Positions 9,021 through 15,712 of a stretch of 64,000 bases of DNA are shown in pieces. Position 1 is the stretch's first letter. The number at the start of each line of letters is the position of its first letter. The notes under the pieces were generated by a model. That model saw only the letters and a program-made list of their open reading frames with translations. It made no database searches and was not told where the DNA came from. The position numbers and the translations under genes were made by a program. The stretch is taken from the NCBI GenBank assembly GCA_016791425.1, contig JAEUMQ010000007.1, positions 62,001 through 126,000 of the forward strand, given 5' to 3'. Source of the stretch: Hyphomonadaceae bacterium. GTDB lineage: Bacteria; Pseudomonadota; Alphaproteobacteria; Caulobacterales; Aquidulcibacteraceae.

Positions 9021-11846
9021 TCAGCAGGTCGAGCCGGACGCGAGGCCGCAGCTCCAGGACTGCCACCAGGTGTCGCTCGCATCCCGCACCGCGCCGATCC
9101 AGGTGGTCGCCGTGAAGAACGCATCCACCGTGTTCGGATTGATCGCGGTGCGCGCCGCTTCATTGGCGCCGTTGATGAACGAGCCGGTCAGCGTGTTCAC
9201 CGTGGCGGTCGAGTTGTTGGTCCCCGCATTGACGATCGCCTGCGCCGAAGCGCCGAGCGCGCCGGAGCAATCGAGCAGCGTGGAGTCCATCTGCGGCGCG
9301 GGCGAAGTGTTGGCCGTGTCTGCGAAGAGACAGACCGACGAGCCCGTCACCACGCCGTTGAGGTACCGCCCCGAGCTGCCCGGCGCGCCGCCGGTATTGT
9401 TCAGTTCGATGCCGCGGATGGCGGCGGCGGAGCTGTTCTGCGCCAGCCCGATCATCGTGAAGTTCGCGATCGTCGGATTGGTGTTGAGCGTGCCGCCGGA
9501 GCTGGAGACCACGCGGTTGGACGCCTCCACCAGCCGGTCGGGACCGCCCGTGAGCGCCGTCTGCCGGATGATCAGGAACTGCACCTTGCCGGTCCAGCCC
9601 TCGTCGTAATCGAGGCTGTCGTCGAGCGCGCCGGTGATCACGATGTTCTTCATGTTCACCGCGCCGCCGAAGATCTCGATCCCGTCGTCGCCGGAATTGT
9701 GCACTTGGACGTTCTGGATCACCGTGCCGGAGCCGACGCCGCCGAGGGTGAGACCGTTGAGGTCGTCGCCCGCCGCCGCCGAAGTCAGGAACGCGCCCGG
9801 ATAGCGGATCTGCAGGTTGTTGAGCCGGCCGCTATTGTCGGCGGCCGTCGCGCCGCCATAGAGCGCCTGGTTGCCGGTGGCCGCCGTCACGCCTTCGATG
9901 GCGTTCTGGCAATCCACGGTTCCTTGCGTCACCGCCGTGTTGCAGCCGCGGATCGGCGCCCGGCCGAGCACGATGAGGCCGCCCCATTCGCGGTTGATGG
10001 CGTTGGTGTCGCTCCGCGACGGGTTCGCCACATCGCCGACCGAGGTCATGATCACCGGCTGCGCGGTCGTGCCGTTCACGAAGATCTGCGAGCCGCGGTT
10101 CACGATGATCATGTCTCCGGGGTTGGTCCCTGCGATCGTCACGCCCGGATCGATCGTCAGCGAAGCCGCTGTGCCGCCGGTTCCGGCCGCGCCGCGATCG
10201 ACGCCGACATCCACCCGCCCTTGCAGCTGATAGAGATTGCCTTGCGTGAGTCGCACGCTGGCCGGGATCGAGCCCGATCCGATCACGCCCGCGATGAGGC
10301 AGCGCGGCATCGGCGTGGACGCGCCGGACACCGTCAGCGGCGTTCCTTGCGTGGTGCCGGCCGGACAGCCCGTCGCCGTGAAGAGCTGCAGCGTCCACCC
10401 GCTCGCCCAGTTCGTCGTCGCCGTCTCGGTCGGCGAGAACGCGCCGACATAATTGGCCGTCGAGAAGAACGAGTTGACGCTCGTCGGATTCACCGCCGTG
10501 CGCGCGATCTCGTTCGAGCCGGGCATGAGGCCGTTGAGCGTCGTAGGCGTCGCGGTCGAATTGTTCGCGCCCGCATTGATGATCGTCGTCGCGACCGAAC
10601 CGTACGCGCCGGCGCAGTCGAACAGCGTCGAATCGAACCGCGGCGCCGGGCTGCCGTTCGAGTTCTGCGCCGAGAGGCAGGTCGTCGAGCCTGTCACGAC
10701 GCCGTTCAGAAAGCGCCCTGAGCTGCCCGGCGTGCCCCCGGTATTGTTGAGATCGATGCCGAGGATGTTGGCGTTCGAGCTGTTCGTCGGCAGGCCGACC
10801 ATCGTGAAGTTAGAGATCGTCGGATTGGTCTGGACTGTGCCCGGCGCGGTGCTCGCGACGACGCGGTTCGAGGCCTCCACGAGCCGATCAGGCCCGCCCG
10901 TGAGCGCCGTCTGGCGGATCACCAGGAACTGCACTGCGCCTTGCCAGCCCTCGTCGTAGTCCAGGCTGTCGTCGAGCGCGCCGGTGATCGCGACATACTT
11001 CATGTTCACCGCGCCGCCGAACACCTCGATGCCGTCGTCGCCGGAATTGTGCACCTGCACATGGTCGATCGTCGTGCCCGAGCCCACGCCGCCGAGCGAA
11101 ATGCCGTTGAGGTCGTCGCCCGCCGCCGCCGATGTCAGGAATGCGCCCGGATAGCGCACCTGCACGTATTGCAGCGTGCCGGAATTGTCGCTCGAGACCG
11201 CGCCGCCATAGAGCGCTTGCGCGCCCGTCGCCGCGGTAACGCCTTCGATCGCGTTCTGGCAATCGACGCTGCCCTGCGCGACTGCGGTGTTGCAGCCGCG
11301 GATCGGCGCGCGCCCGAGCAGGATGAGCCCGCCCCATTGCCGCGACGCGGTCGCCGGATCGTTCTGCCCAAGCACGTCTTCGCGGCTGGTGAAGATGATC
11401 GGCGCGCTCGCCGTGCCGACCGCCTGGATGCGCGAGCCGCGATTGATGATCAGCATGTCGCCCGGCTCATCGCCATAGAGCGTCACGCCGGCGGCGATCG
11501 ACAGCGTCGCCGCCTGCCCGCCTGAGCCGGCCGCGCCGACATCCTGGCCGACGTCCACCCGTCCGTTGAGCCGATAGACGACCCCGGTCACCGCCGGCAG
11601 CGAGAGGTTCGTCAGGATCGCGCCCGAGAGCTGACACACCGTCTGCGAGCCGAGCGCGCCCTGGTTCGTGGTGCCCGACGGGCAGCTCGCCGATCCCCCG
11701 CCGCTCGATCCGCCGCCGCTTGATCCGCCGCCGCCCGGCGCCGTGCCAGGATTTGTCGCCCCCGGCGACGCGATCTCCGAACCGCTCGAACAAGCCGCCA
11801 GAAGCAGCGCGACAAAGGCTGCGCGCCAGGAACGCGTATTTCTCAT
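9021..11846 (-). CDS. Large internally duplicated secreted lipoprotein (ElpS-like)
   Basis: 941 residues from ATG 11846, where MRNTRSWRAAFVALLLAACSSG gives a lipobox with Cys19. A Gly/Ser linker follows, then two copies of a ~430-residue module. Matching segments include 'PGDMLIINRGS/PGDMIIVNRGS', 'WGGLILLGRAPIRGCNTAV', 'IEGVTAATG', 'VQVHNSGDDGIEVFGGAVNMK' and 'ITGALDDSLDYDEGW', typical of a right-handed parallel beta-helix. It is encoded directly before a TonB receptor and T2SS genes, with a Pho box upstream. This matches my recollection of Caulobacter ElpS, an extracellular lipoprotein secreted by T2SS on phosphate starvation. Activity (surface hydrolase, adhesin or phosphate-ester binding) is not readable from the sequence. 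Confidence 0.85.
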   Translation of the reverse strand: MRNTRSWRAAFVALLLAACSSGSEIASPGATNPGTAPGGGGSSGGGSSGGGSASCPSGTTNQGALGSQTVCQLSGAILTNLSLPAVTGVVYRLNGRVDVGQDVGAAGSGGQAATLSIAAGVTLYGDEPGDMLIINRGSRIQAVGTASAPIIFTSREDVLGQNDPATASRQWGGLILLGRAPIRGCNTAVAQGSVDCQNAIEGVTAATGAQALYGGAVSSDNSGTLQYVQVRYPGAFLTSAAAGDDLNGISLGGVGSGTTIDHVQVHNSGDDGIEVFGGAVNMKYVAITGALDDSLDYDEGWQGAVQFLVIRQTALTGGPDRLVEASNRVVASTAPGTVQTNPTISNFTMVGLPTNSSNANILGIDLNNTGGTPGSSGRFLNGVVTGSTTCLSAQNSNGSPAPRFDSTLFDCAGAYGSVATTIINAGANNSTATPTTLNGLMPGSNEIARTAVNPTSVNSFFSTANYVGAFSPTETATTNWASGWTLQLFTATGCPAGTTQGTPLTVSGASTPMPRCLIAGVIGSGSIPASVRLTQGNLYQLQGRVDVGVDRGAAGTGGTAASLTIDPGVTIAGTNPGDMIIVNRGSQIFVNGTTAQPVIMTSVGDVANPSRSDTNAINREWGGLIVLGRAPIRGCNTAVTQGTVDCQNAIEGVTAATGNQALYGGATAADNSGRLNNLQIRYPGAFLTSAAAGDDLNGLTLGGVGSGTVIQNVQVHNSGDDGIEIFGGAVNMKNIVITGALDDSLDYDEGWTGKVQFLIIRQTALTGGPDRLVEASNRVVSSSGGTLNTNPTIANFTMIGLAQNSSAAAIRGIELNNTGGAPGSSGRYLNGVVTGSSVCLFADTANTSPAPQMDSTLLDCSGALGASAQAIVNAGTNNSTATVNTLTGSFINGANEAARTAINPNTVDAFFTATTWIGAVRDASDTWWQSWSCGLASGSTC

Positions 11847-11940
11847 CAGGAGTGCCCCCACTCGGAACGTCGATGGGAGCGGGGTAACGGCCGAACGCGA
11901 CGCTGCTGTATCGCGAGCGTGAAAGTCTCTTGTCGATTGG

Positions 11941-11958
11941 ATGACGCTAGGATGACAG
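11941..11958 (-). promoter_or_regulatory. Pho box (PhoB site) upstream of the secreted lipoprotein
   Basis: On the minus strand the sequence is CTGTCATCCTAGCGTCAT: two 7-base half-sites separated by four bases. The first matches the PhoB half-site CTGTCAT exactly; the second (GCGTCAT) has two changes. It lies about 95 bases before the lipoprotein ATG (11846) in the right orientation. It predicts induction of lipoprotein, receptor and perhaps T2SS genes on phosphate starvation. Confidence 0.75.
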
Positions 11959-11978
11959 CCCAATGGGCCGGCGCGGCC

Positions 11979-12176: not shown

Positions 12177-12254
12177 GAGCCCTGCCCCCCAAGGCAGCTT
12201 CCAAGCTTACGACTCTGTCATAGAAGCGCAACGCAACGTTTTCGCTGCGCTTCG

Positions 12255-12272
12255 ATGACGTCTGGATGACGC
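12255..12272 (-). promoter_or_regulatory. Second Pho-box-like site
   Basis: Minus-strand GCGTCATCCAGACGTCAT repeats the 7-4-7 spacing and the GCGTCAT half-site of the box at 11941-11958. It precedes the possible 65-residue ORF (start 12176) by about 80 bases. A further lone CTGTCAT half lies on the plus strand at 12215-12221, and an 8-bp hairpin GAAGCGCA/TGCGCTTC (12223-12253) lies between the box and the ORF. Confidence 0.6.
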
Positions 12273-12288
12273 CCGCTCGGCGGCCCAA

Positions 12289-12432
12289 GCCCGCCTCGAT
12301 CGGGCTTAAGGAAAAATTAGCCTGTTTCGTCCACGAAACGCCCAGCGGGGAAAGTCAGGAGCGGCCGGGGCGGGCGAAGGAAAACCCAGGTGAGTCTCAC
12401 CTGGAAAAATCGGCCCCTTGGGCCGGATTTTT
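12289..12432 (+). terminator. Divergent intergenic region with operator-like palindrome and terminator-type hairpins
   Basis: This stretch before the speF leader holds three dyads. A perfect GTTTCGT-CC-ACGAAAC palindrome is at 12324-12339 (a possible operator). A perfect 9-bp hairpin CCAGGTGAG-T-CTCACCTGG is at 12386-12404. Directly after it, AAAAATCGGCCC-CTT-GGGCCGGATTTTT (12405-12432, one bulge) is a GC stem flanked by A and T tracts on both sides, so it could stop transcription in either direction. No protein is supported here. The AT-rich patch near 12310-12320 may hold a promoter. Confidence 0.55.
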
Positions 12433-12435
12433 CCT

Positions 12436-12650
12436 TTACATCCCGGACGAACCTTCCTATCTGCGCGCGTACCGGCGGACCTGGAAACAGCGTCCACTAA
12501 CGCCCCCTCGGCCCAGGCCACTACGGGGAACCGATCTGAAGGCGAGGCTCCCAGCTTCGCATGAAGAAACGGCCCCCGGCGTAAGCTCCCAAGGGCGGAC
12601 CTGACATTTAGCATGTCCGACTAACGCCGGCCTGGGTTCATAGCGTCGAG
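12436..12650 (+). ncRNA. speF-type leader RNA (ornithine decarboxylase 5' regulatory element)
   Basis: It is placed directly before a fold-III ornithine decarboxylase, the genomic context of the speF RNA motif known in alphaproteobacteria. It contains two copies of one hairpin: GGCGGAC (12474-12480) pairing with GTC...CGCC (12492-12504), and GGCGGAC (12594-12600) pairing with GTCC...CGCC (12615-12628). Each has CTAA just before its closing CGCC. A long-range stem CCCAGGCC (12512-12519) / GGCCTGGG (12629-12636) encloses the second copy. TTCC/GGAA bases flank the first. The family assignment rests on context and on my memory of conserved segments such as GGACCTGGAAAC; a covariance-model search would settle it. 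Confidence 0.75.
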
Positions 12651-12652
12651 AT

Positions 12653-12685
12653 GGGGTCGCCCCGCTCGTTCGCATTGTTTGGGGG
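12653..12685 (+). promoter_or_regulatory. Candidate expression platform and ribosome site of the decarboxylase
   Basis: CCCC at 12660-12663 can pair either with GGGG at 12653-12656 (3-base loop) or with the GGGGG at 12681-12685 that serves as Shine-Dalgarno sequence for ATG 12694. The choice could expose or hide the ribosome site depending on the folding of the leader upstream. The pairings are visible; switching is inference. Confidence 0.4.
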
Positions 12686-12693
12686 TACGCCGG

Positions 12694-13923
12694 ATGGACT
12701 CTGTCCTTTCGCCCCTGGATGTGGTCAAGCGCGGAGCGCCGGAAGGTCCGGTTGCGATTGCGCGTCCACACCGGGTCGCTGCCGCCGCGGGCTGGTTCCA
12801 AGCGAACTTCCCCGGCGACATCTTCTACGCCGTGAAGGCCAACCCCTCGCCTTGGGTGCTCGACGCGCTTTGGGCCGCGGGCGTGCGCGCCTTCGACGTC
12901 GCCTCCGAGAACGAAGTGGCCCTCGTCGCCGATCGCTTCCCTGACGCGAAGCTCGCCTTCATGCACCCGGTGAAGTCGCGCCGCGCGATCGCGCGCGCCT
13001 ACCACGATTACGGCGTGCGCGCCTTCGCGCTCGATTGCGAGGCCGAGCTCGACAAGATCCTGGCCGAGACGGGCGCCGCCCGCGATCTCACGCTGATGGT
13101 GCGTCTCGCCGTCTCCAATGACGGCGCCTCGCTGCCGCTCGCCAACAAGTTCGGCGCTTCCTCTCTCGAAGCGCCCGAGCTTCTGCGCCGCGCGCGCGCC
13201 GCCACCGAGGAGGAGATGGGAATCTCCTTCCATGTCGGCAGCCAGTGCATGCGCCCGCTCGCCTATCGCGCCGCCATGATGGACGCCAACCGCGCCATCG
13301 TGAAAGCCGGGATCGTCGCCGACATCGTCAATGTTGGCGGCGGCTTCCCCGCGATCTATCCGGGCATGCAGCCGCCGGAAATGTCCGCCTACGTGCATGA
13401 GATCAAGACCGCGTTCGAAGAGATGTTCGTGACCGAGAACGCCAGGCTCTGGGCCGAGCCCGGCCGCGCGCTCGTCGCCGAAGCTGGCTCCATCCTTACG
13501 CGCGTCGAGCTCCGCAAGGGCGACGCCCTCTATCTCAATGACGGCGCCTACGGAAACCTGTTCGACGCCGCCCACGTGAAGTGGCCGTTCCCGGTGAAGC
13601 TGATGCGCGCCAGCCGCGCCAAGGCCGCGCCGTTCCGCTTCTACGGGCCCACCTGCGACAGCATCGACGCCGCGCAGGGCCCCTTCATGTTGCCCGCCGA
13701 CATCGCCGAAGGCGATCACATCGAGATCGGCATGCTCGGCGCCTACGGCGTCGCGATGGGCACGCGCTTCAACGGCTTCGGCGAAACCGAGCTCGTCGTC
13801 TCCAAGGACGCGCCCTTCCCCTCGATGTTCGAGGAGCGGCCCGAATCCAAGGAAAGCGCCGCCGAGCAGGCCAACGTCGTTGACCTCTCCAAGCGTCAGC
13901 GCCGTCCCCGCCGCACGAAGTAA
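12694..13923 (+). CDS. Ornithine (lysine/ornithine) decarboxylase, PLP fold III
   Basis: 409 residues from ATG 12694, preferred over a TTG at 12679 because a GGGGG site lies eight bases upstream. It decarboxylates ornithine to putrescine, the entry to polyamine synthesis. FYAVKANP places the PLP lysine at 48; 'HVGSQC', 'NVGGGFPAIYPG' and 'EPGRALVAEAG' form the phosphate- and substrate-binding loops of the alanine-racemase-like barrel; GPTCDSID carries the catalytic Cys at about 321. The C-terminus is short and basic (RQRRPRRTK). The speF leader suggests feedback by ornithine or polyamine. Lysine as co-substrate cannot be excluded. Confidence 0.93.
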   Translation: MDSVLSPLDVVKRGAPEGPVAIARPHRVAAAAGWFQANFPGDIFYAVKANPSPWVLDALWAAGVRAFDVASENEVALVADRFPDAKLAFMHPVKSRRAIARAYHDYGVRAFALDCEAELDKILAETGAARDLTLMVRLAVSNDGASLPLANKFGASSLEAPELLRRARAATEEEMGISFHVGSQCMRPLAYRAAMMDANRAIVKAGIVADIVNVGGGFPAIYPGMQPPEMSAYVHEIKTAFEEMFVTENARLWAEPGRALVAEAGSILTRVELRKGDALYLNDGAYGNLFDAAHVKWPFPVKLMRASRAKAAPFRFYGPTCDSIDAAQGPFMLPADIAEGDHIEIGMLGAYGVAMGTRFNGFGETELVVSKDAPFPSMFEERPESKESAAEQANVVDLSKRQRRPRRTK

Positions 13924-14000: not shown

Positions 14001-14534
14001 ATGTCCCTCACCATCCGCCCCTGCACGTCCGCGGACGCCGCGATGCTCTCGCTCATCGCGCAGGCGACGTTCCTCGAGACCTTCGCGGACTTCCTCGACG
14101 GCGACGATCTCCACGCGCATTGCCGCACCAAACTCGGCGAGGACGCCCACGCCAAATGGCTGGCGCAGCCCGACGCACGCCTCTGGCTCGCCCTGCCCGC
14201 CCCCGGCCAGGGGCCGGTCGGCTATGCCGGCCTCGCCCCGCCCGATCTCCCGATCCCAACGCACCCGGACGATATCGAGCTGAAGCGCATCTACGTCCTC
14301 TCGCGCTTCCACGGCGCCAAGGTCGGCCCGGCCCTGATCGAGACCGCGATTGCCGAGGCGCGCGCCATGGGCCGCGCGCGCCTTCTTCTTGGCGTACATT
14401 CCGAAAACGCCCGCGCCATCGCCTTCTACCGCCGTTCCGGCTTCACCAACGCAGGCGTGCGCAAGTTCCTCGTCGGCGCCACGCTGCACGACGATTTGGT
14501 GATGGCCAAAGACCTGACTAAGACTTTGGATTAA
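14001..14534 (+). CDS. GNAT-family N-acetyltransferase (polyamine cluster)
   Basis: 177 residues with a complete GNAT fold. 'IELKRIYVLSRFHGAKVGPALIETAI' forms the acetyl-CoA-binding V/I-x-x-x-x-[RQ]-x-x-G-x-[GA] region, here degenerate (RFHGAKVGPAL). 'LLLGVHSENARAIAFYRRSGF' is the typical motif B ending in FY-x-x-GF. It transfers acetyl from acetyl-CoA to an amine. Lying between ornithine decarboxylase and the deoxyhypusine-synthase-like gene, 77 and 92 bases from each, it may acetylate a polyamine (a SpeG-like role), but the sequence does not fix the substrate. Confidence 0.85.
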   Translation: MSLTIRPCTSADAAMLSLIAQATFLETFADFLDGDDLHAHCRTKLGEDAHAKWLAQPDARLWLALPAPGQGPVGYAGLAPPDLPIPTHPDDIELKRIYVLSRFHGAKVGPALIETAIAEARAMGRARLLLGVHSENARAIAFYRRSGFTNAGVRKFLVGATLHDDLVMAKDLTKTLD

Positions 14535-14626: not shown

Positions 14627-15712
14627 ATGGCCCAAGCGCCCGCGAAGAAAGCAAAGCAACCTGCGCCGAAGAAGCGCGACAACAGGAAGGCCGAGCTCCT
14701 CTCGGCCCCCGTCGAGCACATCGACATCAAATCGTTCGACGCCCGCCCGCTCGTCGAAGCCTGGGGCAAGATGAGCTTCACCTCGCGCGACGCCGCACGC
14801 GCCGCCGAGATCCTAAACATGGCGCTGGCGGACAAAGCCTGCTCCACCTGGCTCACCCTCGCCGGCTCCACCAGCGCCGGCGGCTGCATGCATGTGTGGC
14901 GCGACATGGTCGAGAACGACATGGTCGACGCCATCGTCGCCACCGGCGCCTCGATCATCGACATGGATTTCCTCGAAGCGCTCGGCTTCAAGCACTACCA
15001 GGCGAAGGAAATCCCCGACGACAACACGCTGCGCGCGCTCTACATCGACCGCATCTACGACACCTATATCGACGAGGAGGAGCTGCAGGCCGTCGACATG
15101 ACGATCAACAAGATCGCCGAGTCGCTGCCGCCAAAGCCGTATTCCTCGCGCGCCTTCATCCACGAGCTCGGGCGTTGGCTCGCCGACGGCAACGCCCGCA
15201 AGAAAGGCTCGCTCATCGAGACCTGCTACAGGAAAGGCGTGCCGATCTTCTGCCCAGCCTTCAGCGATTCCTCCGCCGGCTTTGGCCTCGTGAAGCACCA
15301 GGTCGATCGCGCGAAGGCGAAGAAGCCCTACATGACGATCGATTCCGTCGCCGACTTCCGCGAGCTCACCGAGATCAAGCTCGCGGCCGGCACCACCGCG
15401 CTCTTCATGATCGGCGGCGGCGTGCCGAAGAACTTCGCGCAGGACACCGTCGTCTGCGCCGAGATCCTCGGCCACGAGGACGTCGAGATGCACAAATACG
15501 CCGTGCAGATCACGGTTGCAGACGTGCGCGACGGCGCCTGCTCGTCGTCAACGCTCAAGGAGGCCGCCTCCTGGGGCAAGGTGGAAACGGTGCACGAGCA
15601 GATGGTCTTCGCCGAGGCCGGCAGCGTCGTCCCGATCATCGTCTCCGACGCCTACCACCGCGGCCACTGGAAAAAGCGCAAGGCCCGCAACTGGGCCAAG
15701 CTCTTCGACTGA
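14627..15712 (+). CDS. Deoxyhypusine-synthase-like enzyme (probable homospermidine/spermidine-type polyamine synthase)
   Basis: 361 residues. Bacterial members of this family do not modify eIF5A; characterised ones transfer an aminobutyl group between polyamines, for example to make homospermidine from putrescine or spermidine with NAD. The NAD-binding core is seen in 'TLAGSTSAGGCMHVWRDMVENDMVDAIVATGASIIDMD' and 'LFMIGGGVPKNFAQD', and the catalytic lysine is in EAASWGKVE (Lys318). A lysine-rich N-terminal tail of about 20 residues precedes the domain. A GGAAAGAG site supports ATG 14627. With the decarboxylase it forms a putrescine-to-triamine pathway. The exact product needs assay. Confidence 0.88.
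   Translation: MAQAPAKKAKQPAPKKRDNRKAELLSAPVEHIDIKSFDARPLVEAWGKMSFTSRDAARAAEILNMALADKACSTWLTLAGSTSAGGCMHVWRDMVENDMVDAIVATGASIIDMDFLEALGFKHYQAKEIPDDNTLRALYIDRIYDTYIDEEELQAVDMTINKIAESLPPKPYSSRAFIHELGRWLADGNARKKGSLIETCYRKGVPIFCPAFSDSSAGFGLVKHQVDRAKAKKPYMTIDSVADFRELTEIKLAAGTTALFMIGGGVPKNFAQDTVVCAEILGHEDVEMHKYAVQITVADVRDGACSSSTLKEAASWGKVETVHEQMVFAEAGSVVPIIVSDAYHRGHWKKRKARNWAKLFD

Follow-up and report, generated by a model that had tools for sequence, protein, structure and literature searches.

Comparison of the region upstream of an ornithine decarboxylase (ODC) gene in the window, by which we mean the whole 64,000-nucleotide stretch of DNA analysed here, with the equivalent regions of related genomes points to a 5' leader of the ODC mRNA whose core would be a junction derived by duplication and which would act in cis on ODC translation; we put the probability of this reading at about two in three. 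ODC catalyzes the committed step from ornithine to polyamines, and how much of the enzyme is translated is probably set by the leader. An earlier claim that the region is a duplicated, structured leader of an ODC gene, very probably regulatory, is borne out by the comparison with relatives.

We propose that the leader RNA begins at the likely 5' end of the ODC mRNA and that the internal duplication builds a pseudo-symmetric four-way junction, in which stem P1 would join the 5' half of copy A to the 3' half of copy B (A5'-B3') and stem P2 would join the other two halves (A3'-B5'). Each copy would retain its own GGAC/GUCC arm, an ACUAA strand would lie at each of two corners, and P2 would enclose a variable third stem, P3. 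A pseudoknot may form between CCCAGG and the CCUGGG that follows P1. Such a fold could govern ribosome access to GGGGG/AUG, and the balance might be tipped by a protein or by a pathway metabolite such as ornithine, putrescine or homospermidine.

The duplicated motif and its conservation upstream of ODC

The two copies, GGCGGACCTGGAAACAGCGTCCACTAACGCC (copy A, 12474-12504) and GGCGGACCTGACATTTAGCATGTCCGACTAACGCC (copy B, 12594-12628), stand in a register of 120 nucleotides (Table 1). Consistent with the preliminary description, GGCGGACCTG occurs at 12474 and 12594, 120 apart, and ACTAACGCC at 12496 and 12620; the letters of the proposed long-range stem, CCCAGGCC (12512-12519) and GGCCTGGG (12629-12636), form an exact 8-nt inverted repeat, and the runs GGGG (12653-12656), CCCC (12660-12663) and GGGGG (12681-12685) lie where they had been placed. 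The paired motif is also more than a chance resemblance, as it recurs 5' of ODC in relatives: among the retrieved ODC loci there are 72 leaders with both copies, representing 48 different sequences in the window's family, and every one of them lies 5' of ODC. The lengths of the arms differ among these relatives and the junction strands are constant; the loop of arm A is GAAA in 47 of the 48 leaders and GUAA in the remaining one.

Table 1. Coordinates of the ODC leader, its proposed structural elements and the adjacent genes in the window
Feature	Position	Strand	Basis or remark
Inferred promoter CTTTAC ... TATCT, 18-nt spacer	12434..12462	+	Alignment with relatives
P1 5' strand (copy A 5' half), partner 12625-12630	12472..12477	+	98.9% of cells paired, almost invariant
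Arm A: GGAC/GUCC, CUG-GAAA-CAG; GNRA-type loop 12484-12487	12478..12494	+	
ACUAA junction strand, copy A	12496..12500	+	Conserved in alignment A1
P2 5' strand (copy A 3' half), partner 12593-12597	12501..12505	+	Own-versus-swapped pairing test
Possible pseudoknot strand CCCAGG, partner 12631-12636	12512..12517	+	Alignment
P3 stem, variable apical part	12524..12578 (12524-12528/12574-12578, 12531-12533/12570-12572)	+	Two-sided changes
Conserved linker CGUAAGCUCCCAA	12580..12592	+	Alignment
P2 3' strand (copy B 5' half)	12593..12597	+	Own-versus-swapped pairing test
Arm B: GGAC/GUCC, apical loop variable	12598..12617	+	
ACUAA junction strand, copy B	12620..12624	+	Alignment
P1 3' strand (copy B 3' half)	12625..12630	+	
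CCUGGG, possible pseudoknot 3' strand	12631..12636	+	Also retained in Caulobacter leaders, without CCCAGG
Spacer hairpin, contains GGGG/CCCC	12643..12673	+	
Ribosome binding site GGGGG	12681..12685	+	
ODC (PLP, Orn/DAP/Arg decarboxylase fold)	12694..13923	+	Pfam PF02784/PF00278
GNAT acetyltransferase	14001..14534	+	Match to spermidine/spermine acetyltransferase PaiA, below cut-off
Deoxyhypusine-synthase-like polyamine synthase	14627..15712	+	NF002699, over cut-off

An exact pattern for the motif matches in 33 of 61 genomes (that of the window and 60 relatives), and the retrieved loci with the pattern carry the motif 5' of ODC, a gene present in 58 of the 60 genomes of the window's family. Genomes with the leader include Hyphomonadaceae-labelled MAGs, Terricaulis, Aquidulcibacter and Candidatus Phycosocius. 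The matches of this pattern in G032, G057 and G059 were rejected as true leaders: given that no ODC lies alongside them at 1e-20 and that a reversed control pattern also matches sporadically, we take them to be chance occurrences. Among the ODC loci examined, those without the duplicated form are L078, which has a single-arm leader, L081, in which none was found, and L086, a second ODC with none; two more loci, L069 and L090, are cut by contig ends. L078 comes from a genome of the window's own family (G005), and in it a single-arm leader and a Caulobacter-like GUG-AA-UUG start replace the duplicated form. L086 is a second ODC paralogue in the genome of the window (G000:C19:40732-41895), 58% identical to the first.

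A covariance model of the leader core built from the leaders of this family (R1) matched 23 of its 25 genomes in a 120-genome sample of the order at E<=1.2e-17, missing G020 and G032. In a 385-genome sample of the class its only strong match was to the genome of the window, and its weak matches there, in G348 and G156, do not adjoin ODC.

The closest solved sequences to the product of the downstream gene are the lysine/ornithine decarboxylases 5gjm/5gjo, and on the plus strand this gene is followed by those for the GNAT acetyltransferase and the deoxyhypusine-synthase-like polyamine synthase. Alignment reveals TTTAC-N17/18-TATnT at a constant distance 5' of the leader in the relatives, including Caulobacter; a scan with the sigma-70 consensus detected no promoter before the ODC leader. 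The RNA 5' end would accordingly be placed by this alignment at about 12470, two bases ahead of P1. Directly upstream of the putative -35 box, and touching it, is a near-perfect inverted repeat (12403-12434) with an A-run and a T-run, which is terminator-like on both strands. Further upstream, a large ORF on the minus strand (9021-11963) encodes a product with two similar halves, in which the stretch NAIEGVTAATG...ALYGG occurs twice.

Junction and two-hairpin folds

The fold energy of 12436-12720 is only mildly better than that of shuffled sequences (z -2.0, with 6 of 200 shuffles as good), and hence the case for the leader rests on comparison and not on energy. We compared two models on an alignment of 31 leaders (A1): a two-hairpin model, in which each copy closes on itself, and the junction model, in which the copies pair mutually through P1 (A5'-B3') and P2 (A3'-B5'). 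Among 12 variant combinations of the P2 strands, such as CGUACCC/GGGUGCG, CACCUAA/UUAGGUG and CACUUUG/CAAGGUG, all 12 form 3-7 uninterrupted base pairs. On average 6.42 of 7 positions pair when a leader's own strands are combined as against 5.05 when strands are swapped between leaders (p about 1e-4, uncorrected for kinship), and the uninterrupted run falls from 5.58 to 3.59 over the 12 combinations. These changes are found in separate groups (L019, L023/L029, L062 and L082-L085). In P3, two-sided changes affect 7 of 12 pairs, with 72.5% of cells paired in an imperfect alignment of this stem. Comparison bears out P2 and P3, as it does the homology and position of the leaders. Near-invariance makes covariation uninformative for P1, for the two GGAC/GUCC arms and for the CCCAGG/CCUGGG pseudoknot, and we put these forward as proposed elements. 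Both CCCAGG and CCUGGG are kept in 29 of the 31 aligned leaders and both are lost in genus g13; the two-sided changes in the pseudoknot are single cells confined to g13 and provide no real compensation.

The duplication had originally been interpreted as a tandem sensor, cooperative or responding to two ligands, with two independent GGCG/CGCC-closed hairpins and a CCCAGGCC/GGCCUGGG stem around the second. A nested energy model, which leaves the pseudoknot out of its energies, does favor the two hairpins: they score better than the junction in 40 of the 48 leaders, with a mean advantage of 3.3 kcal/mol over all 48, and 97.2% of the cells of the two-hairpin model are able to pair. Two-sided changes nevertheless number 35 cells under the junction model against three under the two-hairpin model, these three being single cells that all fall in the long stem. 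Moreover, the closing pairs of the hairpins fail in variants where P2 stays intact: hairpin A can be closed by just 1 bp in g13, whose P2 is complete, and by 3 bp in L019, L023 and L029, whose P2 pairs fully. Since the copies pair together across all variants, the view of them as two independent sensing hairpins is not supported, and we consider a tandem sensor improbable.

Taken as a whole, the pairing evidence favors the junction, with room for exchange between both folds. If the two were to exchange by branch migration of the GGCG/CGCC strands, with a ligand or translation selecting between them, the leader would be a switch. A5' is indeed able to pair with either A3' or B3', and in most leaders the energies of the two folds differ by no more than a few kcal/mol; against this, g13 is unable to form hairpin A, which indicates that fold exchange is not conserved family-wide, and we regard such a switch as unlikely. 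Far less credible is an explanation at the level of DNA, whereby the copies are transcription factor sites and their direct repetition is due to chance. A direct repeat with dyad character close to a promoter could suggest this, but the copies lie downstream of the inferred start, the arm interiors differ in length, some being short and others reaching about 50 nt, and compensatory changes connect the P2 strands across about 90 bp.

The ribosome site and the shorter leaders of related families

It had been suggested that CCCC in the spacer switches between GGGG and the ribosome site; this fails to generalize, since the spacer contains a CCCC run in just 7 of 48 leaders and forms no hairpin at all in 9. 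The other 39 have a spacer hairpin of -4 kcal/mol or better, with differing sequences. Another candidate is GCUCCCAA (12585-12592, within the CGUAAGCUCCCAA linker), which is complementary to the ribosome site UUGGGGG and forms a striking 8 bp with it in genus g11. As a general anti-ribosome site it is possible but falls short of significance overall (own versus swapped p 0.06; best site in 10 of the 33 leaders), and we do not adopt it. The start region could also pair with the RNA 5' end (GCCGG before AUG), an idea set aside because the duplex energy was computed without a control.

Examination of the Caulobacteraceae reveals a compact ODC leader, absent from Rfam, that shares with the leader of the window the promoter spacing, P1 (here CCGGCG/CGCCGG), a GGAC/GUCC arm and the CUAACGCCGGCCUGGGUU tail; it differs in having a single arm, in lacking P2, P3 and CCCAGG, and in bearing a GUG-NN-UUG start pair. 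A model of the compact leader (R2) detects the window at E 0.0037, the related family f4, whose leader is shorter still, at 8e-7 or better in all eight loci searched, and those of family f2 at 0.15-0.46; odc1-like and speF loci were unmatched by it. Five f2 leaders contain GGCGGAC and ACTAACGCC. In the f2 leaders L269-L272 and L286 the loop CUAACC is, by eye and without a control, complementary to the ribosome-site sequence GGUUAG.

RNAalifold predicts P1 and a ribosome-site stem for 31 compact leaders (30 from Caulobacteraceae and L078); in this stem the ribosome-site GGGG is paired to a CCCC at codon 7, enclosing a hairpin that contains the start codon. The fold displays no covariation, as almost nothing varies among these sequences. 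Synonymous conservation in the ODC genes with compact leaders is highest over the first 20 codons (0.91 versus 0.78; 56 genes), a stretch that ranks 1 of 271 with itself counted, which in Caulobacteraceae points to control at the start of translation; the same test in the window's family had just two usable codons in the start stretch and was uninformative. Also in Caulobacteraceae, a GUG that lies 5 nt upstream of the UUG start of ODC, and out of frame with it, opens an ORF (for example L126:1499-1597), which has 29-31 codons in 43 of 44 unique sequences and 48 codons in one, and which overlaps the synonymously frozen ODC start.

As for the history of these forms, in a tree of 43 ODC proteins the deepest split among these leaders has duplicated forms on either side of it and odc1-like leaders fall outside, such that the single-arm form would be a reduction. 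The converse, that the compact form is ancestral, was not adopted, the tree leaning the opposite way, but a single clade of duplicated forms is not rejected (p-AU 0.16). The tree is without eight wanted rows, whose identical coding sequences are filed under other locus ids, and its leader classes were assigned by regular expressions that left some true members as 'none' (L075, which has both copies with one changed base, and the odc1-like L218 and L277); in a first tree the non-member L222 was classed under odc1.

Relation to odc1, speF and other leaders

Tandem riboswitches and guanidine-II (mini-ykkC) RNAs likewise contain two copies of one motif per leader. The leader of the window resembles them in this respect, and differs in that its copies would pair mutually and in that the junction strands are conserved besides the arms. 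The best reading of the sequences is that it represents a new cis-acting translational ODC leader, akin to odc1 in design and not in sequence. We found it undescribed in open-licence PMC papers on Caulobacter and alphaproteobacterial ODC leaders, polyamine riboswitches and odc1. A paper on C. crescentus genome architecture lists four riboswitch leaders detected through Rfam, and its available text leaves ornithine unmentioned (PMC4117421). The alphaproteobacterial ODC leaders speF and odc1 are given no ligand in the accessible portions of the papers that describe them (PMC1273637, PMC8632094).

The odc1 leader (uORF-25-1) is described as having a pair of start codons separated by 2 nt, a uORF of 11 codons and a 5' pseudoknot, and reporter work in the same source found its conserved bases to be required for expression of the main ORF (PMC8632094). 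It parallels the leader of the window in lying 5' of an alphaproteobacterial ODC, in pairing its 5' end with an enclosed region and in a presumed control of the translation start. The odc1 ribosome site lies on the right shoulder of a long stem formed with the 5' region; in the leader of the window a GCUCCCAA/UUGGGGG pairing may offer a counterpart (own versus swapped p 0.06). Leaders of the order relatives L273-L277 and L218 fit the description of odc1; inspection of L218 by eye shows GGGACUUCCAA/UUGGAGGUCCC, CUGCC/GGCAG, UUG-AA-UUG and an 11-codon uORF. Start pairs 2 nt apart are seen in all six odc1-like loci, in 10 of 10 f4 loci (GUG-NN-UUG) and in 5 of 5 from f2 (GUG-UC-AUG); the compact leaders have GUG, two bases and UUG (once GUG) in 44 of 45 cases by pattern, with GTGAATTG in L178 recognized by eye. 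In contrast, the leader of the window has a junction with duplicated arms and no start codons 2 nt apart, and of the 43 duplicated-type leaders whose start aligns with that of the window, just one possesses such a pair (L021). Neither R1 nor R2 matches any of the six odc1-like loci. Based on the published description and these six loci, the leader thus appears odc1-like in design without being odc1 by the features tested. One might go further and envisage a Holliday-like junction, with interchangeable A5-B3/A3-B5 and A5-A3/B5-B3 pairings, as an ODC switch that replaces the dual-start device of other leaders, with a single-arm version of the RNA in Caulobacteraceae, a scheme that we consider unlikely.

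The leader represents a third, unlisted group of ODC leaders, in Caulobacterales, with a natural series of duplicated, single-arm and minimal forms, the simple one being found in Caulobacter. Caulobacter is a genetic model, and a series that includes it makes both the question of the ligand and the origin of the junction by duplication directly testable.

The preliminary description had assigned the leader to speF, and a covariance search contradicts this: RF00518 has no match at E<=10 within 12200-12760, and over the whole genome none above the cut-off, the best score being 13.9 bits, elsewhere (gathering score 37). No Rfam 15 family reaches its gathering score in the window, and Rfam yielded only a sub-threshold tmRNA match on the loci of six relatives. 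At E<=0.01, RF00518 matches 7 of 142 genomes sampled from the class, that of the window excluded, and the models of the window's family and of Caulobacter leaders do not match any of four speF loci. The two leaders have in common a position 5' of an ODC-like COG0019 gene in alphaproteobacteria, and differ in sequence and in structure (PMC1273637).

In the accessible part of their paper, Corbino et al. report no binding of ornithine, putrescine or spermidine by the speF leader (PMC1273637). Although obtained with another group, this result favors a further alternative, namely that the leader is bound by a repressor protein or by a small RNA and contains no metabolite aptamer. The two near-identical invariant arms would suit a dimer, and the presence of only one arm in Caulobacter also fits; no candidate protein was identified, and we consider this alternative rather unlikely. 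Finally, in L037, L038, L039 and L040, which are all four loci with a speF match >36 bits, a match to the ar45 'sRNA' (RF02347) ends about 8-9 bases 5' of speF on the same strand; given this upstream adjacency in 4 of 4 loci, what is listed as the sRNA ar45 may in fact belong to the speF leader as its 5' part.
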